This document shows positions 6,207 through 64,000 of a DNA stretch of 64,000 nt, piece after piece. The notes under the pieces are model-generated. The model searched no databases. It was not told where the DNA came from and saw only the letters and a program-made list of their open reading frames with translations. Origin of the DNA: Tomocerus qinae (Eukaryota; Arthropoda; Collembola; Entomobryomorpha; Tomoceridae); NCBI GenBank assembly GCA_020055645.1, contig CM034546.1:36456001-36520000 (forward strand), written 5' to 3'. A program made the translations under genes and the position numbers. How positions within the stretch are numbered: position 1 is the stretch's first letter; each line of letters starts with the position of its first letter.

Positions 6207-8092
6207 CAGTGGCGGCCCTAGGGTTTGCGGGGCTGGGTGCAAGAGGTGAAAACATTTTGATACTTGTGTAATGTGCACTTGTGCTTGCAAGTACTAAAAT
6301 TCGTATACAAATATCACAGCGTAAGTATACAATTAAAATCACGTATTAAGTATAAATTATTTATTTTGTTCAAGATGGCAATTTAATTTTGGACTGTGTT
6401 AACTAATACGCTTTGGACTCCAATTAGCTACAAATTAGAATTTTTTATTGGTTTTAATTATCAGAACAATGCTTTTCTGGCTTTTTTTTTCACTTAATGT
6501 TTTAATTACATCGTTAAAATCCAGGTGTTCAGCAATATCATTTTCGATGGAAAGAACCGCTAAACCATTTAATCGCTCCTGAGACGTTGTTGATTGGAGA
6601 TATGTTTTTATTAGCTTCAGTTTTGAAAAACTTCTTTCCGCCGACGCAACTGTTATTGGAATGGTTAGAATAATTTGAAGAGCAATTCTTACATTGGGGA
6701 ACTGATTGAACATGTTTTTTTCATATAAATAGCATAAAGTGCCAAATACAGTGAGGTTTTCTGGGAGTAATAATATGGCAAGTGCCCTAATTTCATCACA
6801 TAATTCATTTCCATCAACATCAGAAATTGAATTATCACTGCTATCTGTTAAATTTTCTTCCAAATTTTTAAAAAAACGTTAAAATAATGTTTGAACTTTC
6901 TGTCTTCATTTTAGGAATATCGTAAAGTGGCCCAAATAGATCCTTATGAATTTTCAACTCCTTAAACCTTTGATCTAAAGACTTAACGGCTGCATCGATT
7001 AAGGTTAAAAAGAATTGTATTCGGAAGCGTTCTTTTTCGTCCTCTACAGGACAGTCGGTACTTTCATGAAAAACAAATTTTCGTTTCTTCTGTATTCTCT
7101 TTTTCTTGAATTCCCTCTCTATTTCAAGCTCATCGCATATTTCTCTGGCATCAATCTCGGCAGACGTCATTCCTTGTATACGTTGCTCCACAAAGTATTT
7201 ACGTATCTTGTCTATTTGCGACAGTGCTTCATCCAATTTAAAGTCTTTCTGTTGCATGTATTTGCTAATGGAGTTTATTTTGTGCAACAGATTGTGCCAA
7301 ATCACCACACTTAAAACAAACTCGTATTTCATAATGAAATCCATAAGTGATGTCGCCTCACTGACCACTTGGCTGTCTTTTATTGAATCGATGATCACTA
7401 ACAAGGCTTCTCCAATTTGTGGGAGTTGATAACGAACTGCAGCAACACTTTCATAACGACATTCCCACCGAGTTAGTAAGCAACCAAATACAATACTCTA
7501 AATATGCTTACTGCTGTTTAGATTTTCGATTTTGTCATTGTCGTTTGTGTTGTCATTAGTCCGAATAACTGGAGGAATAGCAACCACATATTTCATCAAA
7601 GACCCTTGTAATTTTTCATCTTCTTTTCGTCCTAGATCTTGTTTTCGTCTTTTAGCTTGCCCCGATTGGTATTTTCTTGCAAAATCTCGTTCTCGTGATG
7701 TCATTTCTCTTTTAATGGGCGAATTTTCAAAAATACATCAGAAATAAGCTTATGAAAGACATTTATGAGCTTGATCTTACGTGACTAAACTACATGTCCA
7801 GTAGTTTTGTGAGTTGAATAATAAATTTCATGCATAGCCGCTTTATTTTACATTCTTTGATAATGGTGTAATGTAAATGTGCTACTTGAGCAATGCATAT
7901 AAAACCAAGTTATAGGCATACAGCAAAACATAATTCATCTACACGGACACATATTATGCAAGCTTCATTTTGCAATACACATGAAAATAACATGCCTATT
8001 GCCTACTACTTAAATTGTCACAAGTGCGGGGCCCCCCTGAGCGCGGGGCCCGGCGCGACCGCTCCATCCGCTCCATAGGCGGGCCGCCACTG
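6207..8092 (-). mobile_element. hAT transposon, 1,886 bp, with exact 8-bp target duplication
   Basis: The termini are CAGTGGCGGCCC (6207) and GGGCCGCCACTG (ending 8092), a perfect 12-bp inverted repeat. The flanks are gaaataat at 6199-6206 and again at 8093-8100. The minus strand carries a decayed transposase with a hATC dimerisation domain. Insertion was into the first intron of a BTB pseudogene. The termini and duplication are intact, suggesting fairly recent arrival. Confidence 0.92.
6435..7704 (-). pseudogene. hAT transposase, internally deleted and frameshifted
   Basis: On the minus strand: a basic N-terminal piece at 7498-7704 (MTSRERDFARKY...), then after a stop and apparent deletion a region with TRWECRYESVAAVRYQLPQI (about 7390-7470), the motif of DUF4371-type hAT transposases. 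It continues through 6868-7404. A shift in a T/A homopolymer near 6866 moves to the frame of 6435-6863. That part holds the hAT C-terminal dimerisation signature (ITVASAERSFSKLKLIKTYL and ERLNGLAVLSIE). A zinc-finger MYM-1-like (ZMYM1) database hit would be expected. The catalytic core between the N-terminus and TRWE is missing, so the copy cannot be autonomous. Confidence 0.85.
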
Positions 8093-13147: not shown

Positions 13148-14670
13148 TCACATCATTTTACAACAGCAACGTTGCTCGTTGTTTGAAAAACTGTCCTGAA
13201 ATTGGCATATCAATATGTTGAATGACATCTAATTAAATTTTCATTCGAAACTTTTAAATCTATGGGTTTAAATAATTTTACTTCAAAGACTTACCATTTT
13301 TAATATAATCTGCATAATCTTTGGTAGGATTTCTTTCATTCCTTCTCCTGTCTTCGCTGAACATTCAAAGTATGCTTTAGCTCCGACTTTTTTGGCCATT
13401 TCTTTTCCATCATCCTTATTTAAAATTTTCCGTTCACTATCATGCTGAACATTTCGCAGATCAAGTTTATTTCCCACCAAAAAAAATGGTACATCCGTAC
13501 AAGAGCGTTTAGTTTCATATACCCATTTAGCATGGACATTTTTATAAGAAGCATAATTATTAATAGCAAAAACTATGACAAAAATATCAGTTAGTGGGTA
13601 ACATAATGGACGTAATTTGTCGTACTCCTCTTGACCGGCGGTGTCCTAAATTGCTAGTTGAACCTATAAATTACATTTTTGTAATTTTTCTCTTGTAGTT
13701 TTTACAATGAATAAAAAAGAAAAACTTACTAGACTGTTGTCTACTTTCACAAATGTTTCATGATTGTCAAAAACAGTTGGGAGGTATTCTTCAGGAAATA
13801 TTCCAGCCGTCCAAACTATGTTCAGGCAAGTTTTCCCAGTAGAGCCATCTCCGATCATAACAAGTTTTTTAATTCCTGTTATAATATTATCCTGTTTCAC
13901 GATTGGTTTTTCAACTTCGGAAACCACTACTGCCTGTGATAAAGGATAAGTATACACTTAAATTATTATTCCTGATTAATTTGCTTGCTCACTTATATAT
14001 TATCGTATACCTGATGACCTTTTTATTATCCTCTGAAGATCCTTGCAGTGATCTTTCCTCTTTGATGATAATGTATTTTGTTTTAGAAGCGGTGACGATA
14101 TCTTCAACTCGTAGAACATCCACCAGTTCTTGAACTTTATCCAAAAGCGGATTTATTCGATCATAATTACTCGGCGAATTGGATAAGTCTAAAGTGAATG
14201 GCTGCGAAATCATTTGTGAATTTTCATTATAATTAGTATTTTTGTCTAAAACTTGGGCTATATGATCGTTGCAAGTTTCCTTCAAAGCTTTTAAAAGTTT
14301 TTCCCTTGTTCCTGGTCCTTTTCTTGTCAATAAAAGCATTAAGTTGTACACTTGATTTTCGTGAGTTGAGTGGGACTCCTAAAAGATGAAAAAAATACAC
14401 CTGTAAACTGCGAACGTAAAAATAAATTTGTCCAACTACATATACACACTTTGACGTTCTTACTTTTAGTCTATGTAACTTGTTTAATATTATATATGTC
14501 ATTTATATACTACAAATAATTAAAACAATTACTATAGTTTCTTTCTCGGATGGAAGGATTACACCACTTTGAATCAAATGAATGGTAAGGCTTTCAATGT
14601 TGGTTGTCCTTTGAGTTATAAAAACTATATTATTTAGTACACTGGACTCCAGTTCTTTAACTTCTTCCAT
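13148..14670 (-). CDS. CARD-Rho GTPase fusion, five exons, one in-frame UAG
   Basis: Exons (minus): 14,670-14,533; 14,378-14,019; 13,933-13,730; 13,663-13,295; 13,195-13,148. All borders are GT-AG and phases agree, giving 372 codons plus a stop. Residues 1-89 form a CARD-type death fold (SLTIHLIQSGVILPSEKETI; then LLTRKGPGTREKLLKALKE and DHIAQVL). A linker follows. From 187 a Rho-type GTPase has P-loop GDGSTGKT (194-201), switch LPTVFDN (217-223), DTAGQE (241-246), NKLD (299-302) and CSAK (335-338). The last exon ends RCCCKMM, a poly-Cys CAAX-like prenylation tail. Codon 240 is TAG (13,646-13,648) where Rho proteins have Trp. The donor of exon 2 (AAG/GTCATC) is weak; a nearby CAG/GTATAC is stronger but out of phase. 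CARD domains recruit caspases or adaptors, so coupling to a Rho switch would suggest a death or immune signalling role; that is inference. It may be a young pseudogene. Confidence 0.72.
13646..13648 (-). other. UAG at the conserved switch-II tryptophan
   Basis: The exon reads V-Q-L-A-I-(TAG)-D-T-A-G-Q-E. Rho and Rac proteins have W at this place. TAG differs from TGG by the single middle base. Every other coding and splice feature of the gene is open. Candidates are a recent nonsense mutation, a base error in the assembly, or A-to-I editing (UAG to UIG is read as Trp). Confidence 0.85.
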
Positions 14671-16152: not shown

Positions 16153-16920
16153 CTAACTTAGGCTAGACTCAAACAGTGTACGGAAATAGTGTTGAAATTG
16201 GTTACGAAAGGTGAAAGAAAAAGTGTAAGACCCTAGCCTTTCTGCAACTTTTTCATCTGCTAGTTTGCAAATCGCTTTGTCGTCTTTTTTTTGTATTTCT
16301 GAAAAGAAAAATTCCGATGTGGATTTAATACAAGCTGTAAATAATTTTTTCTCCGGTTTCATTATTAGTTCGACATTTAAGTCAAACATAGAGTAGCCTT
16401 TCTCTCTGTATTCCGTAGAAGATTTTTCTTTAAGCCAGCTGTAAACATACAAATTTGAACTTATCTTATCCTCTAAATTATATTTGTGATACATTTGAGT
16501 GGAATAATTATTATTTACAGGCACGCTATAATATCCGATTTGATCCAAATATTTATAATTGTTGTCAATCAATTCTTTTAAGTTGTTGTAACTCTTCTTG
16601 TCAAGTGGCACAACTAACTCTCCCGTTATGTAAGTTTCATAATGACACCTGATTACAAAAGCCACAATGATGATCAGCAGACAGACATTTCTTTTTTCTC
16701 GCGTGATGTCAAACTGGGCCAATGTAATAGCCACCGTTGACGTTATCACTCGTTCCACTCTGGCATACAATGAATGCATTTGGATCTTGTGAGACGAGAT
16801 CCAATATGCCGCAGGTAAGAGAATGATGGTCAAAATCCAACTGGATAGATCGAATGTGTTTTGAATTATAGCATGAAGAGGAAGATCATAAAATATTTCC
16901 CTTTCTTGACAATAAACAAT
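16153..16920 (-). pseudogene. Ionotropic-receptor fragment, copy 1
   Basis: The minus-strand frame runs from YDLPLHAIIQNTF-type sequence (about 16,905) through two membrane segments to FESSLS at 16,153. It is about 85-90% identical by eye to the C-terminal half of the full receptor at 37.8-39.6 kb. Both ends are missing: the N-terminal ligand-binding half was replaced by Harbinger sequence upstream, and the frame ends before the last transmembrane helix. Compared with copies 2 and 3 it keeps the TFSFTFRNQFQHYF segment that they have lost, so it represents the older state. Confidence 0.85.
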
Positions 16921-16949
16921 ATGTCAATAAAAATTTAACAGATTTACAT

Positions 16950-17986
16950 ATTTCTGTTCCATAAAACCAATTTTTACATTTGACATTGACATAAGATTTT
17001 TTGACATTTACCGCGAATTGTCACCCATGTACAGATGCATTTCATAACTTTTACATTTACATTAACATAATTGTAAATATGTAATAGTATTTTGACAGAC
17101 CTAAATACCACCATCAATTGTAAAGTATGTAATAATTTTCTACATTTTGTTCGAAATATCGAAATCGATATAACCAAATAAATGGATCTTTTGCTAGATA
17201 ACCGGCTGTTATTTAGCAGTGATAGTGAGAATGAAGAAACAATTGAACGAAAAACTAAAAATTGTAAACCAAGAATCAATTTCGATCAACAGATGAGTGA
17301 CACTCAGTTTAACGAGAGTTTCAGGATCTCAATAGAAGCATTTGAATATGTTATCGAAAGAATGGGGCCAAATTTACAGAATCCAACACTTCGAAATCAT
17401 TCATTAAGCCCCACTCATCAACTGTTGAAAACTTTTCACTGGTTAGGAAACGGCAGGCAGTACCACGGAAAAAGCAACAATGCACGGTATTTTGAAATCA
17501 TCGGTTCATCGTTGTATTGTGAAAGTATCTAATTGAAGTAATAACATATATTAATTACATGTTAGCAATTCAAACCTTATTATTAATTCTAGATTTTCCG
17601 AACGTTGAAATAAGAGAAGAGGGAGGAACAGCTATGAACACTCTTAACGAAATAATTGACACTTTCGATTATTAATACTATACATATCGACAAATTCAGC
17701 ACTTCTTTAACTTTGATTCTTTATAGCACCTCCAAAATACCTCCTATATATTATTTACTATCTCTATGAGTACCTCTGACTCAGGTTCTTCAGATTGATC
17801 TTTAATGCATAAATATTGGGTGAAGGCAGTATGAGGTCAACCCAGGCGACATTCTAGCTCGTAGGATTCCAGCTTCCTTTTATATATTTCAATATCTAAT
17901 AGTCTTTTTCTTTCGTCGAACTAGTTCTTCGGATTGTGCTTTCTTTCGTTTTTCAGCAACTTTAGCTTGAAATAAAGTATGTCGTT
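16950..17986 (+). mobile_element. PIF/Harbinger fragment, copy 1, cut by a PLE fragment
   Basis: Same sequence as 26,950-28,020. The transposase N-terminal exon is at 17,182-17,545; here a one-base insertion (aaaaagc) near 17,472 shifts the frame after YHGK. The segment ends where PLE sequence begins at 17,987, so the Myb-like half seen in copy 3 is mostly absent. Confidence 0.7.
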
Positions 17987-18886: not shown

Positions 18887-19149
18887 TTATTTGGTTATAT
18901 CGATTTCGATATTTCGAACAAAATGTAGAAAATTATTACATACTTTACAATTGATGGTGGTATTTAGGTCTGTCAAAATACTATTACATATTTACAATTA
19001 TGTTAATGTAAATGTAAAAGTTATGAAATGCATCTGTAAATGGGTGACAATTCGCGGTAAATGTCAAAAAATCTTATGTCAATGTCAAATGTAAAAATTG
19101 GTTTTATGGAACAGAAATATGTAAATCTGTTAAATTTTTATTGACATAT

Positions 19150-19873
19150 TGTTTATTGTCAAGAAAGGGAAATATTTTATGATCTTCCTCTTCATGCTAT
19201 AATTCAAAACACATTCGATCTATCTAGTTGGATTTTGACCATCATTCTCTTACCTGCGGCATATTGGATCTCGTCTCACAAGATCCAAATGCATTCATTG
19301 TATGCCAGAGTGGAACGAGTGATAACGTCAACGGTGGCTATTACATTGGCCCAGTTTGACATCACGCGAGAAAAAAGAAATTTCTGTCTGCTGATCATCA
19401 TTGTGGCTTTTGTAATCAGGTGTCATTATGAAACTTACATAACGGGAGAGTTAGTTGTGCCACTTGACAAGAAGAGTTACAACAACTTAAAAGAATTGAT
19501 TGACAACAATTATAAATATTTGGATCAAATCGGATATTATAACGTGCCTGTAAATAATAATTATTCCACTCATATGTATCACAAATATAATTTAGAGGAT
19601 AAGATAAGTTCAAATTTGTATGTTTACAGCTGGCTTAAAGAAAAATCTTCTACGGAATACAGAGAGAAAGGCTACTCTATGTTTGACTTAAATGTCGAAC
19701 TAATAATGAAACCGGAGAAAAAATTATTTACAGCTTGTATTAAATCCACATCGGAATTTTTCTTTTCAGAAATACAAAAAAGAGACGACAAAGCGATTTG
19801 CAAACTAGCAGATGAAAAAGTTGCAGAAAGGCTAGGGTCTTACATTTCCGTACACTGTTTGAGTCTAGCCTAA
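19150..19873 (+). pseudogene. Ionotropic-receptor fragment, copy 2
   Basis: Plus-strand frame with the two membrane helices (WILTIILLPAAYWI and FCLLIIIVAFVIRC) and the following S2 ligand-binding lobe. It lacks the segment after RLGSY that copy 1 and the intact receptor have: an internal deletion joins it to ISVHCLSLA and a stop. No start codon context and no third membrane helix. Nonfunctional. Confidence 0.85.
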
Positions 19874-26239: not shown

Positions 26240-26950
26240 AGACTCAAACAGTGTACGGAAATGTAAGACCCTAGCCTTTCTGCAACTTTTTCATCTGCTA
26301 GTTTGCAAATCGCTTTGTCGTCTCTTTTTTGTATTTCTGAAAGAAAAATTCCGATGTGGATTTAATACAAGCTGTAAATAATTTTTTCTCCGGTTTCATT
26401 ATTAGTTCGACATTTAAGTCAAACATAGAGTAGCCTTTCTCTCTGTATTCCGTAGAAGATTTTTCTTTAAGCCAGCTGTAAACATACAAATTTGAACTTA
26501 TCTTATCCTCTAAATTATATTTGTGATACATATGAGTGGAATAATTATTATTTACAGGCACGTTATAATATCCGATTTGATCCAAATATTTATAATTGTT
26601 GTCAATCAATTCTTTTAAGTTGTTGTAACTCTTCTTGTCAAGTGGCACAACTAACTCTCCCGTTATGTAAGTTTCATAATGACACCTGATTACAAAAGCC
26701 ACAATGATGATCAGCAGACAGAAATTTCTTTTTTCTCGCGTGATGTCAAACTGGGCCAATGTAATAGCCGCCGTTGACGTTATCACTCGTTCCACTCTGG
26801 CATGCAATGAATGCATTTGGATCTTGTGAGACAAGATCCAATATGCCGCAGGTAAGAGAATGATGGTCAAAATCCAACTGGATAGATCGAATGTGTTTTG
26901 AATTATAGCATGAAGAGGAAGATCATAAAATATTTCCCTTTCTTGACAAT
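26240..26950 (-). pseudogene. Ionotropic-receptor fragment, copy 3
   Basis: Minus-strand equivalent of copy 2, sharing the same internal deletion after the LADEKVAERLG region. It has one extra defect: a single A is missing in the tctgaaaag run near 26,340, which shifts the frame after SEFFF. Private substitutions relative to the other copies include S-to-L in YWILSHK. Its N-terminal side was replaced by a Harbinger insertion. Confidence 0.85.
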
Positions 26951-27218
26951 AAACAATATGTCAATAAAAATTTAACAGATTTACATATTTCTGTTCCATA
27001 AAACCAATTTTTACATTTGACATTGACATAAGATTTTTTGACATTTACCGCGAATTGTCACCCATGTACAGATGCATTTCATAACTTTTACATTTACATT
27101 AACATAATTGTAAATATGTAATAGTATTTTGACAGACCTAAATACCACCATCAATTGTAAAGTATGTAATAATTTTCTACATTTTGTTCGAAATATCGAA
27201 ATCGATATAACCAAATAA

Positions 27219-45887: not shown

Positions 45888-46195
45888 ACTACCAAGTGTG
45901 GTACAATTGTACCACGCAGCAATATCCAAGTGTGGTACAATTGTACCGCACAATTTAATGGACTCGCGCAACAGTAGATAATACGTAACGTTTGAAATTC
46001 GAATGATTTCATTTCCAAAGTGATGGAAATGGAACTACTAAAACTGAAAGGTAGGATCAGAAAGTTTTGCAAAATTTAAATTGATCAAAGCGGTTTATAA
46101 ATGAAAAATAAACAAAATGAATTTCAGTTTGAGGAATAAATCTTTTAAATCATATTGTTTAGATACATGTAACAGTTACTAACCTTATATTTTAC

Positions 46196-47320
46196 CTTGA
46201 CCACCTGCAGTTGCAGCATTCCCTTTCCCAGACACACTTTCCGCTGCACCCTTTCCAGCATTGTTGTCCAAAAATATACCATTGTAAATGCTTCTTTCAC
46301 TGGCCAAATTTTCGTGAGCTTTGATTAATTCCTGGTAATGGGCTTTCCTCTCGAGTTGATCTTCTTTATTTTCCGTTCTTATTTTCTCTATTTTATCTTC
46401 ATAGTGTTGCCTGACTTGATTTATTTTATCTTCATAGTGTTGCCTGACTTGGTCTATTTTATCTTCATAGCGTTGCCTGACTTGATTTATTTTATCTTCA
46501 GAGCTTTTTCTAAGCTCCGAAAGCTCCATCTTGGTCTCCTTCAATTCATTTTTCAGTGTTTTTATGAAATCCTCTGACTGCTTCGTAATGATTTTAATTA
46601 TCTCCTCCTGTTTCATATCTGTATCAGAACAAAAATATTTATTTACTTAATAAAATGGCCATATTTCTCACCAAAAGCGTTGTAAAGTTAATGTCATTTG
46701 ACTAGAAATTTATTTTAACTTTACATAAATTACCAGGACGTTTCAAAATTGATAGCAACTACTTTTCAAACTTAAATTTTATTTTTATTTCACTTCAATA
46801 CACAAAGCCGGAATTTCGTGGAAAACTGAATAGAAATCAGTAAAGTTTTGTACAAAAGGATTATATCTGTCATTTAAAACTTATTTATCTTGCCACTTAC
46901 TTTGAAATTTAAATATTCGTTTTAAAATAACCTGATAATAATCGCTTATGTAGTCCACAATAGAATTCTGCTATTCCTTTAAAATTTATTTATATTATAT
47001 TGTCTTAAAGGGAATTTTCGATTTTTAGAAAATAATGTAACAATTACTAACTTAGAGAATGAGGATAGAACAATGTATATACATATTTTAACAGCAATGG
47101 ATCCCGACAGATAGTTAACAACTAAAAATAATATTACCGTTGCATTGACATTCAGATTGATGAGTAGATTCCATGGAATCGTCCTAAAACCAAAAATATA
47201 TATCGTTATGCCTAATAACGTAATGTCCATCAAAATACTATCCAATACACGTTATTCGATATTTATGTTGTAGATTATAGGACATTAACTTACTTCAGAT
47301 CCATTTGAATTTGTATCCAT
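46196..47320 (-). pseudogene. Coiled-coil gene, left copy lacking the last exon
   Basis: Exons 47,320-47,294; 47,183-47,138; 46,618-46,196, the same as the right copy. Exon 3 translates identically (KQEEIIKIITK to GGQG). The last exon (ESHLDNDIL) found in the right copy is not present: the arm changes to other sequence at about 45,950. If the donor at 46,195 is unused the frame stops after GKI, which would still give a 165-residue protein, so this copy may be expressed. See the right copy for the domain description. Confidence 0.6.
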
Positions 47321-49689: not shown

Positions 49690-52384
49690 AAATTATTTAG
49701 AATCATTCACCTCTCTGCTATAATAAGTTATTATATACACATGGATACAAATTCAAATGGATCTGAAGTAAGTTAATGTCCTATAATCTACAACATAAAT
49801 ATCGAATAACGTGTATTGGATAGTATTTTGATGGACATTACGTTATTAGGCATAACGAATATGTTTTTGGTTTTAGGACGATTCCATGGAATCTACTCAT
49901 CAACCTGAATGTCAATGCAACGGTAATATTATTTTTAGTTGTTAACTATCTGTCGGGATCCATTGCTGTTAAGATCTATTGTTCTATCATCATTCTCTAT
50001 ATTCTCTAAGTTAGTAATTGTTACATTATTTTTTTAATCGAAAATTCCCTTTAAGACAATAAATAAGTTTTAAAGGAATAACAGAATTCTATTGTGGACT
50101 ACATAAGCGATTATTATCAGGTTATTTTAAAACGAATATTTAAATTTCAAAGTAAGTGGCAAGATAAATAAGTTTTAAATGACAGATATAATCCTTTTGT
50201 ACAAAACTTTACTGATTTCTATTCAGTTTTCCACGAAATTCCGGCTTTGTGTATTGAAGTGAAATAAAAATAAAATTTAAGTTTGAAAAGTAGTTGCTAT
50301 CAATTTTGAAACGTCCTGGTAATTTATGTAAAGTTAAAATAAATTTCTAGTCGAATGACATTAACTTTACAACGCTTTTGGTGAGAAATATGGCCATTTT
50401 ATTAAGTAAATAAATATTTTTGTTCTGATACAGATATGAAACAGGAGGAGATAATTAAAATCATTACGAAGCAGTCAGAGGATTTCATAAAAACACTGAA
50501 AAATGAATTGAAGGAGACCAAGATGGAGCTTTCGGAGCTTAGAAAAAGCTCTGAAGATAAAATAAATCAAGTCAGGCAACGCTATGAAGATAAAATAGAC
50601 CAAGTCAGGCAACACTATGAAGATAAAATAAATCAAGTCAGGCAACACTATGAAGATAAAATAGAGAAAATAAGAACGGAAAATAAAGAAGATCAACTCG
50701 AGAGGAAAGCCCATTACCAGGAATTAATCAAAGCTCACGAAAATTTGGCCAGTGAAAGAAGCATTTACAATGGTATATTTTTGGACAACAATGCTGGAAA
50801 GGGTGCAGCGGAAAGTGTGTCTGGGAAAGGGAATGCTGCAACTGCAGGTGGTCAAGGTAAAATATAAGGTTAGTAACTGTTACATGTATCTAAACAATAT
50901 GATTTAAAAGATTTATTCCTCAAACTGAAATTCATTTTGTTTATTTTTCATTTATAAACCGCTTTGATCAATTTAAATTTTGCAAAACTTTCTGATCCTA
51001 CCTTTCAGTTTTAGTAGTTCCATTTCCATCACTTTGGAAATGAAATCATTCGAATTTCAAACGTTACCTATTATTTACTCTTGCGCGAGTCCATTAAATT
51101 ATATTGAGGCTAATTTGTTTTTGTATGTTTTTTTGAAGTTAATTTTGGTTCATGAACCCTTTGAATCTGTCAAATTAAAAATAAGCGGAGATTTTATTGA
51201 ATGATTTTCGATATAATCCTGCAATATTTTCTCATTCTTTAAAACTTTTCCCATTAATTTCTCCCATGTTAATGCCTATGGGACATACTTTTCTCCAGTT
51301 TGTATTTTTTTCCGTTTAATGACCGTTTAATACTTTTTTTATTTCTTTTTAGAGTCGCATTTGGATAACGACATTTTGCAATTGATGCGAGTCCTTTGAT
51401 GCCCGTTTTTGACAAACAACGATAGTAATGTCTTCGAAAATAATCAAGGACGATCCATCAAAGCAAAAAATATGAGAATGTTAAAGTATATAAATATTTT
51501 TAAGTACTTATATTAAAGTACTAATATGGATTAAATTTAATATGTTGATACTATAATTATATTATTTAAGTATGACTCTTTGTCACTTGACTATATTATT
51601 ACTGTTAAATTTGTAGATTGAATACTCTGTTTTATATAATGTTTATTGATATTGTTATACATTAAGTGTAACTTTGATTACTGAGGAAATTCAAATTGGA
51701 GAAATATGTTTTAAGGAGCAATAAATTTATGATGACTATATATTGCAGTTCTATATATTTTATATTTTTAACCATGATATTGTAAATATTTTAATATTAT
51801 GAATGAATGAATCAGATGAACTTCATATTGTTATCTTCAGAACTTGCATTATATAAATGTACCTGTAACGTTAATAAATTCTACTACTATACTACAAACA
51901 ATCTGGTTAATTCAGATATTTTTGCATTGATTTGGTTTTTACCTGTTTGTTTAATTCATAGAAAAATAATATTGTCACTCCTTATGGTAGGTCACTTATA
52001 CTATTCGGTAGATCGTGGGATACAGTCATCAGGTCATGGGACTCACACAATTGGTACGGTAGTATAAAACGGCGGAATCTAGGCTTGGCTACAAAAGCAA
52101 AATATATTAAGCCGTGTAGAGTCTTTGACTAAAATGGAAAGGGGAATAACGCAGGATTTATCACCTGTGGACAACTCATGACTGGCCCTACTTACGACGA
52201 TAAAAAGGTACAAGACTGCCCCAAGGCCCCTCATGTCATTATCAACTCCTGGGGAGGCGGCCAAAACTCTACTTTCCACAAGGATGTCTTCAAATCTTGG
52301 CACGCTGCTCATATCATTCCCGTATTTTCTAACGGTAACAAACTTATTTCAATAAATGCTGGTTTGAATTTTCAAAAAATGTTC
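49690..52384 (+). repeat. Right arm of second large inverted repeat
   Basis: Mirror of 44,327-47,375, with the complete coiled-coil gene and an S8 relic. Coding exon 3 is identical at the protein level between arms, while introns show small differences. Confidence 0.85.
49741..51399 (+). CDS. Short coiled-coil protein with 11-residue repeats
   Basis: Exons 49,741-49,767; 49,877-49,922; 50,434-50,856; 51,353-51,399, all GT-AG and in phase, giving 180 residues. An acidic/Ser N-terminus (MDTNSNGSEDDSMESTHQ, CQCND) is followed by a long helix (EEIIKIITKQ onward) in which EDKINQVRQRY-type units repeat about four times with an 11-residue period. In DNA this is a 33-bp tandem repeat. A Gly/Ala tail (NAGKGAAESVSGKGNAATAG) and the final ESHLDNDILQ exon end it. 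Hendecad repeats form right-handed coiled coils, often oligomers or stalks. No enzyme or membrane segment. I do not recognise the family. The left arm holds a near-identical copy lacking the final exon. Confidence 0.65.
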
Positions 52385-57787: not shown

Positions 57788-60700
57788 TTAATCTTCATTT
57801 TCCAACTCGTCAGTTTTTACACCCATTTGATTGAGTAAAGTTTCGAAAAATTCAACCAGTTCATCAAATTTGGGTCGGTTTTCTGGTGAAGCATTCCAGC
57901 AGCTTCGCATTTCACGATATCTACAGATTGAGAATATACATGAAACGTTAATAGATTTATATGTGTAATTTGTTAACTTATAATTCCCCACATTTCATCA
58001 GTCGCATGTTTTGGTTTCCCAAGTCTTAATCCCTCTTTCAGTCTGGACAAAAATCCAATATTCCATCCAAGTCCAGGATATGGTATCTCTCCCAAAGTAA
58101 AGATTTCCCATAGCGTTATTCCAAATGACCAAACGTCACTTGCTGATGAAAATGAAAGTCTCTGCAAAGTTTCAATCGCCATCCATCTCCATGGTAAAGG
58201 CTCGTCTTCTTTTTTGTCCGCGTAATTTGCGTAAACATACATTTTCCTTGACAGCCCAAAATCTGTAATTTTGGCTACTTCATTCTCCGTAAGCAAAACA
58301 TTTCTGGTGGCCAAATCTGCGTGTATTACCTTTGTAATATAATAAAAGTGAATCATATTCATATTAAACAGTTATTCGTTTTCATACTATTATCATTAAG
58401 TACATTTTAGTAGTTGGGGATAGAAAATGACCATAAAACTTCTCAAAAAAATGTAACTTAAACGTTTTTGAGTAAATCTAAAGTTTTAATGAAGAGTTCA
58501 TAATAATTGCGTAAATGGGAAATATTTTCAACATCAATATAGTTGAAATATTCTACAAATGTACTATTACATACCTTCTTAGCGGTCAAATATTCCATTC
58601 CTTTTGCAATATGATAACACCACGTAACTAAACTTTGCATTTGTTTTTCTTCCGTATTTACGGAAGGACTTTCCTTTTGTCTACCAAGAAATTTAGTCAA
58701 TGAATGGCGATAACTGTCAAATAGTAAACATTACGTAAAATAAATTACACATTGAATAAATACGTACTAAAAATTTATTCCTAATGAAATATACCTAGAA
58801 CGTTTGAATCCGTCTTCATCCTCTTCAGGCATAATATTAACATAATGACACTTTTCATTGGTTAAAGCCATAGTACGCAGAACTTTTTCAAGCGAACCTT
58901 TTGAACAAAACTCCATTGCAAGGAGAATGCGTCTTCCTGTAGAATATTATTATTATTTCCTATACAAAACCACTAAATTATATGGAATAGTAAATAACTG
59001 TGGTCATTACCTTCTCGAATTCCTTCCGTGCACGCTCCAATAAATCCCACAATATTTGGGTGACTCCCAATGTATATCATTAGTTTAATTTCCGATAGTA
59101 AATTAATTACGTTCTCTGGAGAACAAAATGGCTTCGTAGTTTTTAAAGCTACCTCTTCGTTTGTCTCTACTAATTTCCCCAGGTAAACTACTCCAAATTG
59201 TCCACGTCCCAAAACTTTTCGTGCGTCTATAAACACAAATATTAATCTAGTGACAATCTCCACTAAAATCAATGCGAATTAAAAAATTCAATAAATGTTT
59301 TACATAATCTGAACTGATTTCTATCCTTTTCGTATCTACGATCGTAGGGAAGTCGAAGAGCTATTTCTACATTGCTGTCATCCTCTTCGTCTTCGGTAGT
59401 CATTCCGTTTTCAAAACATTGTATACTTTCTTCAGTTAGAGTAGCAATCTAATTTACATAGTAGGATTAGTATTACATATTCAACTATGTAAATATTTCT
59501 AATTATATCCGCAAATTATAATGTTTAGAAACAAACTCACGTTTTTAGTTTTTGCTTTTCGGTACCAGATAATAATTATCAAACTGCATGTAACACCGAA
59601 TACAAAAATTACTGCGATGATTATATAAATATAAATGGAAGCTGTTTCTTGAGGTATTACTTTATTTCCATTTTCACACAGCGGAATTTGTTTCTCTAAT
59701 TCAAAGCAAAAAAATGATTGGTTTAAAATTAATTAAAATAGTCTTCAAGTATAAGATTTATTACCGTTAATTTTTTCAACATACGCAGATGTATCCGTAA
59801 TGGAATCATTTCTCCTCCTCCACCATCCAAAATGTCCTTCGGCTCCACAGGGACCATTAAAAACTAATTTACTAGATGAAATAGCAGATTTCCACGGTGC
59901 ATCAAACGCCTCGAATAAATTAACGCGTAATTTGTTACTCGCCGCAGATTTTGCCATTAAGTTCCAGAATTGCGACAAGTTCTCAATGGATGCTGGTAAT
60001 AAATGTCGATCTATTCCTTTACTAGGCCAACCAGACTCATAAATCACTTGAAGATTCACATTGATCTTTTTAACAGCTTCATTTATTTTTAGAAATAGTC
60101 TTGTAAGATATTCCACCGATGTAGAAACTCCCTGGCGTCCTGGAGTCATCGGAGAGAATATTACGCACAACAAATAGTCAGACTTTCTCAAGATTCCATG
60201 CAAGAAAGTAGAATTGGCATCTGAATTGACCAACATGTCGCAAATCTCCAATCGCACACCAAACTTGACATTGTCTACTGATTTCTCTATAGCTTGATGT
60301 TTTCCGTCGTCAATCATCTTAATTACTTTTGAAGCCGTAGACTCGTCTATTACATAATTGCTCGAAAATGTAATTCCCCAAACTGTACCAGGATGAATTG
60401 AATTAGCTTTCTTCGCAATCTCAAACGCCTTTTCTACTTCTGTGTTCAACAAAGCTGGGTCGTCGTGTCTCCAAACAGCAATACTTACACTTATTGCTGT
60501 CTGCTTCAATTTCGAATTCAAATTTGCTGCAACTACCCCAGTGAAACCAACCGCCTCTCCATTATTCCATTTTGTGACTCCCACTTAAGTTAAATTAATA
60601 TAATTAAATTAGTAACTTATTTCTTACAAAAATGGACTACTTTCTTTGGAAAAAATGGACGTATTTATTTTAAATTTTAAAGCAAACCTTCGGTAGCTCC

Positions 60701-61051
60701 TACTCCATAGGTGGTTATATTACAAAATTTCGTGGAAACTATTTTCAGCATAGTTTCTACTTCGGGAATAGTATAATTCTTCCAATCCCAAACGTTTCCT
60801 GTACTTCTCACGTGTGGGGAAAAAACCACGCCTATAAATTTCTTGTTTATTTTCTGTGCACATGATGATATTATGAGAAGACTCACCTAAATGTGTAATG
60901 TTAGAGATAAATTGTAATGATTTTATAATAAACAAAGATTATGATTAATGTATATATTATTAATTGAAGTATGGATCATTACTATAAGTAAATAGTAGTA
61001 TAAGATTAATATATTCTCACAGATATAAAAAAGAAACACTTTGGAGTACAT
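57788..61051 (-). CDS. Receptor tyrosine kinase with GH17-like ectodomain
   Basis: Exons (minus): 61,051-60,983 (tentative signal-peptide exon), 60,886-60,688, 60,583-59,765, 59,695-59,541, 59,448-59,304, 59,226-59,011, 58,936-58,795, 58,713-58,575, 58,329-57,992, 57,920-57,788; all GT-AG with matching phases, 784 residues. The signal peptide ends near IISSCA. About 40-345 is glycoside hydrolase family 17 (FIGVVFSPHV, ITTYGVGA, YESGWPSKG at 271-279, FEAFDAPWK, EGHFGWW). The acid/base site (usually GNE) reads TFSSNYV at 161-167, so catalysis is doubtful. The transmembrane helix is at 383-405. Kinase: GRGQFG (469-474), Lys491 in VALK, an insert after LRTMALTNEK, HADLATRN (Asp633, Ala instead of Arg), DFG (651-653), SDVWSFG, CWNASPENRP. 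The kinase looks active and PVR/VEGFR-like. The ectodomain may bind beta-1,3-glucan or another glycan (inference). Confidence 0.88.
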
Positions 61052-62634: not shown

Positions 62635-64000
62635 CTATTTGCACTGAGATTTTATTCCATACAATTTATTTAATGCAGGGTATATATGGTTGTTAATTAA
62701 ATAGTTTTGTTTCACTCTCATTTTGATGTCATCAGGACTGCTGGTTGCACCAAGTTTTTTAATTCCAGGTTTATGAATGAGGAACGCATTGTTAAGAATA
62801 TGAAACTCGTAATTCAGTAAGCAGAGAATGTAAGCCTGTAAAATTAAAAAATAACTTTATAAAATTATATATTAAAAATTCTCGAGTGTAATTTAAATAT
62901 TAAAACTGCATGCATTTTTTGCAAAGATGAAAATTGGAAGATCATTTAAAGATTAATTAGATGATGTTAGATATTTTAAATAAGAATTAAATTACCTGAG
63001 TCATTTTATCTCGTCGTCCTTCCCAGCTAAGTCTAATATCATACTCTGGGTCATACTTGGTGCCAATAAAAATGGGTTCCCACATCTTGTATCTCCCTTT
63101 TCTTTTGGCAACGTAGAAAACTTTCATATCCTTTTTTATTGAACCTTTAAGCCATTGGTCTCTCCTAGGAATTGTATGACACTGTGGGCAAACGAACTTG
63201 TGGAAATTAATTATACTTCCGTTTTTAATCATCGTCACTAATTCCCGTTTGGTTTCCGGTAATTTTTCAACATATTCTTCAGACTCGAAAATAGGGAGGA
63301 CAAAAACTCTTCTTTTGAGCCCGATTCCTCCATCTCTTTTAATCATGGCTAAAAAGTCAGGTATAAGATTTGGATTGGGATACAATTCAATATCAGATGC
63401 AAGTACAAAATAAGTAGTGGCCATGTCTCTTGCAATCATCCGTCCCATATTTATCGGGTAGGTCATATTATTTTCCATTCTGTATGAATTTTCGTGTTCG
63501 TTTGTTAGATCTATCTCCTCAGAGCAATCTATAGTCAACGTGTTTGAATTCATAATGAGTTTTTCTTCAGGCAGGTGTCCATTATCAAAAAAGAAATGGA
63601 AATTCACAAAATCCTTCACCAAAGATGAGTTCAGACATTCACGCAAGTATAGAACATGTTTCACTGCATTGGTAAAATCTGATCCGGGTGCATAAACACT
63701 CAGAGAGACTGGACCTTGCCATCTTTTCAAAAGGGGAATTAAATTATCTAAATAATTATATTCCGCGTGTGTTGTGTATGTTATAGATTTATCACAGTGA
63801 AACGTTTGCGTTGCTCGGAAGTAATTTGATAGCACCCAGAAACCACCGTGTTGCCTATAAGACACTTTAGATATTTCGTCATAACAAGGAATTTTTGAAT
63901 CTTCGAGGAAAGCTACTTCTGAATCTTCCATATCAATATAATTGGCCTTACTATCATTTTTCTCAAATAATTTAATTATAATAATCAACAATGCTAACAC
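62635..64000 (-). CDS. B4GAT1-like: GT49 beta-1,4-glucuronyltransferase 1-like, 5' end outside window
   Basis: Exons 64,000-62,996 (open to the window edge; the first visible codon is GTG, not a start) and 62,835-62,635, joined in phase at an ATG-ACT-CAG/gtaatt donor; stop TAG. A hydrophobic LALLIIIIKLF at the edge fits a type II Golgi signal-anchor. Lumenal motifs: CHTIPRRDQW, YPINMGRMIARDMA, LASDIELYPNPNL (DxD-like D-I-E), VFVLPIFE, MWEPIFIGT, LSWEGRRDKMTQAY, then ILNNAFLIHKPGIKKLG. This matches arthropod B4GAT1-like enzymes (LARGE-related GT49 fold), which add glucuronic acid to xylose to prime matriglycan on dystroglycan. Arthropods have several paralogs, so the acceptor is uncertain. Complete at its 3' end. 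Confidence 0.9.

Follow-up and report, generated by a model that had tools for sequence, protein, structure and literature searches.

Receptor tyrosine kinases (RTKs) of animals are regarded chiefly as receptors for protein ligands, and Venus kinase receptors carry a Venus-flytrap ectodomain. Glycosidase-derived recognition proteins such as GNBP/beta-GRP and Klotho stem from GH16 and GH1 enzymes and are not kinases themselves. Here, we describe a gene on the minus strand of a 64,000-nucleotide stretch of the genome of the springtail Tomocerus qinae (GenBank assembly GCA_020055645.1, contig CM034546.1, positions 36,456,001 to 36,520,000; G000:C1:36456001-36520000 in our searches; the whole stretch is called the window below), and analysis of its sequence confirms that it encodes an RTK truly linked to an ectodomain of the glycoside hydrolase family 17 (GH17) type. 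Like GNBP/beta-GRP and Klotho, the receptor would use an enzyme-derived domain for recognition, but its source is neither GH16 nor GH1 and it has a kinase of its own; its ectodomain is a GH17-type barrel and not a Venus flytrap. The Ig-type RTKs (PDGFR/VEGFR/FGFR) resemble it in the kinase, the kinase insert and an Ig domain in a sister kinase of the same genome (locus L055), but they have Ig domains where the window receptor has the barrel. GH17 glucanases and glucanosyltransferases (PDB 6fcg, 4wtp, 1ghs) share fold and nucleophile position with the ectodomain and differ from it by an acid/base Glu, which is Asn here, and by the absence of a transmembrane (TM) and kinase fusion.

The nearest known system is CHRK1, a chitinase-related receptor-like kinase of tobacco, which in the excerpted text of PMC10573068 is likewise a membrane receptor kinase with a glycoside hydrolase ectodomain that lacks a catalytic Glu. 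As described there, however, CHRK1 is a plant receptor-like kinase with a relative of class V chitinases as ectodomain, whereas the window gene joins an animal tyrosine kinase to a GH17-type barrel and has no chitinase-like ectodomain; the two are convergent, not homologous. Another animal RTK, Sweet Tooth of Hydra, has C-type-lectin-like and possibly sugar-binding extracellular domains according to excerpts of PMC3531485, a lectin-like fold and not an enzyme-derived barrel. A 2025 paper on a whitefly case describes GH17 as, to its authors' knowledge, undocumented in animals before (PMC11800479); databases already contain GH17 proteins of springtails and mites. Genes that fuse acquired and animal domains, the horizontal-gene-transfer chimeras, are described in PMC13389597 for arthropods including springtails; its main text contains neither kinase nor glucan as a term, and neither glycoside hydrolase nor glycosyl hydrolase. 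The sequence-only reading of the window knew of no receptor kinase with such an ectodomain, and this statement is supported: none appears by title or abstract among the open-access matches listed (springtail or glycoside hydrolase, plus kinase), and a word-based protein search with the window ectodomain, covering 2592 candidates (431 to 1372 amino acids, sharing exact words), gave no relative of the whole receptor with an E value of 1 or less.

The gene model spans 57788 to 61051 of the window and comprises ten exons with 784 codons plus stop in a single open frame (Table 1), with GT-AG borders at all nine introns and compatible phases. Exon boundaries were picked by eye so that the frame stays open; a spliced-alignment script gave identical exons, with the same model as its query, and hence is a consistency check only. 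The predicted protein starts with a hydrophobic leader, followed by the GH17-type domain (residues ~36-362), a stalk with Cys369, a TM helix (~383-407), a juxtamembrane segment and the kinase (465-765). Hydropathy above 1.6 in 19-residue windows is confined to residues 5-34 and 375-410, which agrees with a probable signal peptide and a single TM helix between ectodomain and kinase, the layout of an RTK, as long as the candidate exon 1 is included. This exon is the least certain part of the model. It fits the pattern at loci L011-L014, where the candidate ranked highest for the first exon, on an ad hoc score, is likewise short and hydrophobic, starts with ATG and is followed by a phase-0 intron. 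The kinase matches PK_Tyr_Ser-Thr (PF07714) with an E value of 3.3e-79 over profile positions 4-257 of 258 and has the GxGxxG, VALK, HxDLATRN and DFG motifs of a complete tyrosine kinase domain. Against PDB, the 60 best of 2268 matches are VEGFR, FGFR and PDGFR, save an EGFR construct on top. Thus, the earlier proposal of one spliceable frame with a secreted GH17-like domain, a single TM helix and a complete tyrosine kinase was borne out, and the motifs it had quoted (YESGWPSKG, FEAFDAPWK, EGHFGWW) all lie in exon 3.

Linkage of the two domains does not depend on this one locus. In the genome (334 Mb, 115 contigs), the window ectodomain gave at least 30 exon-level matches, grouped into 16 loci, and a GH17-type exon is followed by kinase exons at ten loci on three contigs (the window, L009, L010, L011, L012, L013, L014, L050, L051 and L054). 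The nine other loci with the same order, together with ratios of nonsynonymous to synonymous substitution rates (dN/dS) well below 1, put the pairing beyond chance. Five stand-alone GH17 genes (L015, L016, L017, L018 and a second gene in L011) had no kinase matches in the flanks fetched; a leader before the domain is evident in L015-L018 and not in the second gene of L011. With the kinase alone as query, 136 exon-level matches had E values of 1e-10 or below genome-wide, many of them clustered (loci including L021, L025, L029 and L031-L049), and the window kinase, judged by these matches, is a member of a much expanded kinase family. dN/dS was calculated by NG86 for close paralog pairs only, since dS is saturated between the window gene and its paralogs. 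It was 0.04 for the ectodomain, 0.05 for the TM/juxtamembrane part and 0.24 for the kinase of L009-L010 (the kinase of L010 being truncated), and 0.27 for the ectodomain and 0.15 for the kinase of L011-L013; L013-L014 gave 0.10 for the ectodomain and 0.67, on seven changes, for the TM/juxtamembrane part, with the kinases one change apart. In these measurable close pairs, ectodomain and kinase are under purifying selection.

The GH17 identity of the ectodomain was judged from profiles and from structure. With Pfam Glyco_hydro_17, the whole window protein scored 20.8 bits (E = 3.4e-4) and the ectodomain alone 24.0 bits (E = 3.6e-5), matches that cover the C-terminal part only and lie below the curated cut-off of 28.2; the receptor paralogs L009 and L013 reached 30.3 and 26.0 bits and the stand-alone L015 and L018 54.5 and 40.0. 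For the window ectodomain, Pfam listed no other family with an E value of 1 or less, and NCBIfam returned nothing for it and only weak bacterial kinase matches. The profile of the receptor/GH17 family, however, found GH17 structures in PDB with E values down to 1.8e-10, and for the AlphaFold model of exon 3 (pLDDT 86.9) the ten best VIA entries were all GH17. The (beta/alpha)8 fold of GH17 is therefore assigned from the family profile and the exon 3 model, and of the earlier GH17 claim the fold stood, whereas the window protein on its own did not pass the profile threshold.

In clan GH-A enzymes, the acid/base residue follows strand beta4 and the nucleophile lies at the end of beta7. In the exon 3 model, Asn165 (model residue 76) follows beta4 and Glu272 (model residue 183) closes beta7, with beta1 and beta2 assumed to lie in exon 2 and model residues 68-74 and 179-184 counted as beta4 and beta7. 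In PDB alignments, Glu272 corresponds to Glu in 4wtp and to Ala in 4wtr, an active-site mutant. All 11 receptor-type domains have Asn in the acid/base column. Glu occupies it in each of the genome's five stand-alone GH17s and in 50 of the 52 database rows, the exceptions being P0001 (Gln) and P0054 (Thr). The nucleophile column has Glu in 10 of the 11 (L054 has Gln), again in all five stand-alone proteins, which thus keep both catalytic residues, and in 51 of the 52 rows (P0051 stops short of the column). Short fragments among the 56 database proteins (P0052, P0053, P0055, P0056) were kept out of trees and motif table, and the structure-based alignment A2 is without P0008, P0014, P0051, P0052, P0053, P0055 and P0056. 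When seven of the 11 receptor-type domains were compared with 54 enzyme rows (without P0001, P0051 and P0054), 37 of 74 columns that are at least 90% conserved in the enzymes were kept, 16 were lost in all seven receptors and 21 were mixed, and the site therefore appears partly kept and partly remodelled. These data suggest that the ectodomain is a pseudoenzyme. A still-active glucanase was considered and is unlikely, because the acid/base Glu is replaced by Asn.

Some single proteins deserve mention here. L054 (G000:C3:2960400-2969200), with Asn and Gln in place of both catalytic Glu and kinase exons downstream, is the deepest branch of the 11-receptor ectodomain tree. P0054 of Orchesella cincta has a hydrophobic C-terminus resembling a GPI signal and is possibly another surface pseudo-GH17; the tree places neither it nor P0001 (from JGI) firmly. 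In P0008 and P0014, the GH17 domain is joined to PF11901, and in P0051 of the mite Medioppia to a tetraspanin, perhaps by fusion of gene models. L056 (G000:C1:135334000-135343900) carries a pseudo-GH17 domain of receptor type, and no kinase exon was found in the ~7.2 kb that follow; the locus may encode a soluble or decoy form, or it may be broken.

The receptor copies share common ancestry. Receptor ectodomains form a clade with support of 100/100 in a tree of seven receptors (without P0001, P0051 and P0054) and of 88/56 with all eleven. An unrooted kinase tree was built from 30 C-lobe exons of ~115 amino acids (8 GH17-linked, 22 other) out of the 136 exon-level matches, without L010 and L012 (broken C-lobe) and L056 (no kinase found); in it, one branch separates the GH17-linked kinases from the others (92/83, 96% of 200 bootstrap trees). 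Three kinase loci among the better matches (L052, L053, L055) had no GH17 match in the upstream stretch fetched. In L055, manual joining of two exons gave an Ig I-set domain instead (49.3 bits); Ig matches in a piece of L052 are below threshold, and the piece of L053 tested gave none. Given the Ig ectodomain of the sister L055 and the single branch of GH17-linked kinases, a single exchange of an Ig for a GH17 ectodomain in an RTK, followed by joint duplication, appears likeliest. The stand-alone GH17s of the genome group with proteins of Orchesella dallaii and Folsomia candida (100/99), in keeping with a springtail source. Rows including all named arthropods are split (100/100) from 29 rows including a cyanobacterium, most rows on both sides being without organism name. 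Animal GH17 may have been acquired from bacteria.

We propose a family of type I RTKs whose pseudoenzyme GH17 barrel senses a glycan without cutting it, much as CHRK1 would, possibly in immune or food sensing; we give this model about an even chance. In an Ig-type (PDGFR/VEGFR/FGFR-like) receptor, the ectodomain would have been exchanged for a GH17 glucanase like those that arthropods secrete as well, and the grafted domain would then have lost catalysis by the exchange of the acid/base Glu for Asn. Glycan binding by such a barrel is plausible; it may bind an extended glycan, most likely beta-1,3-glucan or a similar wall polysaccharide, and a multivalent polymer would cluster the receptors. 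The clustered kinases may trans-phosphorylate the activation-loop tyrosines 659/661/664 and Y566 in the kinase insert, and the phosphorylated YxN site would recruit a Grb2-type adaptor and lead to Ras/MAPK. The YVNI sequence at Y566 is, we presume, a Grb2-type docking motif of the Ras/MAPK route, and a YxN before the HxDLA motif is found in 7 of 9 kinase-linked paralogs, L054 and the degraded L012 being without it. The earlier proposal of a kinase that reads beta-1,3-glucan directly was not supported in this form, with Asn at the acid/base position of every receptor-type domain, the nucleophile lost in L054 and part of the enzyme-conserved positions changed.

Several observations weigh against our model. 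The best GH17 match of the exon 3 model in Foldseek has a TM-score of just 0.60 at 16% identity; the model is a part-barrel, so this value was expected. The canonical HRD of the kinase reads HAD in the window, with the catalytic Asp present, as at the receptor loci of the family, and HAD or HSD in sister kinases including the 22 other C-lobe exons of the tree. L054 is without the YxN motif. No whole-protein relative was found by the word-based search, so the family is documented for the T. qinae genome alone. Finally, the 16 enzyme-conserved columns lost in all seven receptors include enzyme Tyr 48, Asn 164, Asn 230 and Tyr 232, some of which probably belong to the sugar groove; specificity may thus differ, or the ligand may be no glycan at all.

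The barrel could indeed be a scaffold for a protein ligand, such as a growth-factor-like peptide, a microbial protein or a stand-alone GH17 paralog. Beta-Klotho, a pseudo-glycosidase that binds a peptide hormone, is a precedent, and alteration of positions 164, 230 and 232 in every receptor compared, replacement of both catalytic Glu in L054 and the Ig ectodomain of L055, usually a protein-binding type, point in the same direction. However, all seven receptors compared retain Glu272, Trp275 and the stretches D-x-P-W-K and E-x-H-x-G-x-W, and the L009-L010 pair shows strong constraint on the ectodomain; we consider this explanation less likely than a glycan sensor, of which it is the strongest competitor. 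Decay of a duplicated chimera, or a mere kinase scaffold with little or no ligand sensing, would fit the truncated kinase of L010 (C-lobe lost), the degraded kinase with a stop in L012, the one in-frame stop in the model of L051 and the lone domain of L056, but is improbable in view of the low dN/dS of close pairs and of models free of stops for the window, L009, L011, L013, L014, L050 and L054. Even less probable is a partly enzymatic ectodomain that signals upon cleavage or transglycosylation: the nucleophile is kept in all receptor-type domains except that of L054, which has neither Glu, but the acid/base Glu is gone from all 11 and the enzyme Asn preceding it is Ser in 7 of 7 compared. Merging of a glucanase gene with a neighbouring kinase gene can practically be dismissed, since the same exon order recurs at ten loci and the receptors group together in ectodomain and kinase trees alike.

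Table 1. Exons and catalytic-site codons of the GH17-linked RTK gene (positions in the window)
Feature	Position	Strand	Content
Exon 1 (candidate)	60983..61051	-	ATG and hydrophobic signal-peptide stretch MYSKVFLFYICENILILYYYLLI; phase-0 intron as in L011-L014 candidates
Exon 2	60688..60886	-	Signal peptide end and start of GH17-type barrel (probably beta1, beta2); paralog matches
Exon 3	59765..60583	-	Remainder of GH17-type barrel, residues 90-362
Asn165 codon, acid/base position (Glu in enzymes)	60357..60359	-	Right after strand counted as beta4
Glu272 codon, nucleophile position kept	60036..60038	-	End of strand counted as beta7
Exon 4	59541..59695	-	Cys369 stalk and single TM helix (~383-407); hydropathy
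Exon 5	59304..59448	-	Juxtamembrane segment carrying LPYDRRYE
Exon 6	59011..59226	-	Kinase N-lobe: GRGQFG, VALK, EIKLM
Exon 7	58795..58936	-	Hinge and kinase insert; Y566-VNI (YxN motif)
Exon 8	58575..58713	-	Kinase insert through C-lobe start
Exon 9	57992..58329	-	Kinase C-lobe: HADLATRN, DFG, activation-loop tyrosines 659/661/664, MAIE
Exon 10	57788..57920	-	Kinase end and stop codon

Elsewhere in the window, the product of a neighbour gene on the same strand (62990-64000, minus) matches Glyco_transf_49 (dystroglycan glycosyltransferase) at 2e-83. Three open frames that contain hydrophobic stretches and are nearly identical (16156-16923, minus; 19145-19870, plus; 26301-26960, minus) adjoin MDLLLDNR... 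frames, likewise nearly identical to each other, at 17182, 18536 and 27219, an arrangement that resembles a repeated mobile unit; Pfam gave no match for the one of the three that was searched. Two identical, coiled-coil-like frames of 153 amino acids are inverted relative to each other (46188-46646, minus; 50406-50864, plus), and a hAT transposase dimerisation region (6441-6878, minus) and a Ras-family GTPase exon (13286-13645, minus) are also present.

A wider interpretation, which we offer tentatively and with less confidence than glycan sensing as such, is a multigene family of pattern-recognition RTKs, in which a catalytically disabled glucanase, perhaps of bacterial origin, sits on an Ig-type RTK and the copies differ in which fungal, algal or cyanobacterial wall glucans they read in immunity or feeding. 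If true, an animal would possess a direct route from glycan to tyrosine phosphorylation, convergent with plant receptor kinases. A receptor family in which a disabled polysaccharide hydrolase has taken the place of the Ig ectodomain would illustrate the passage of a secreted enzyme into a signalling sensor, and the GH17-RTK family would be an animal counterpart of the glycosidase-type receptor kinases of plants.
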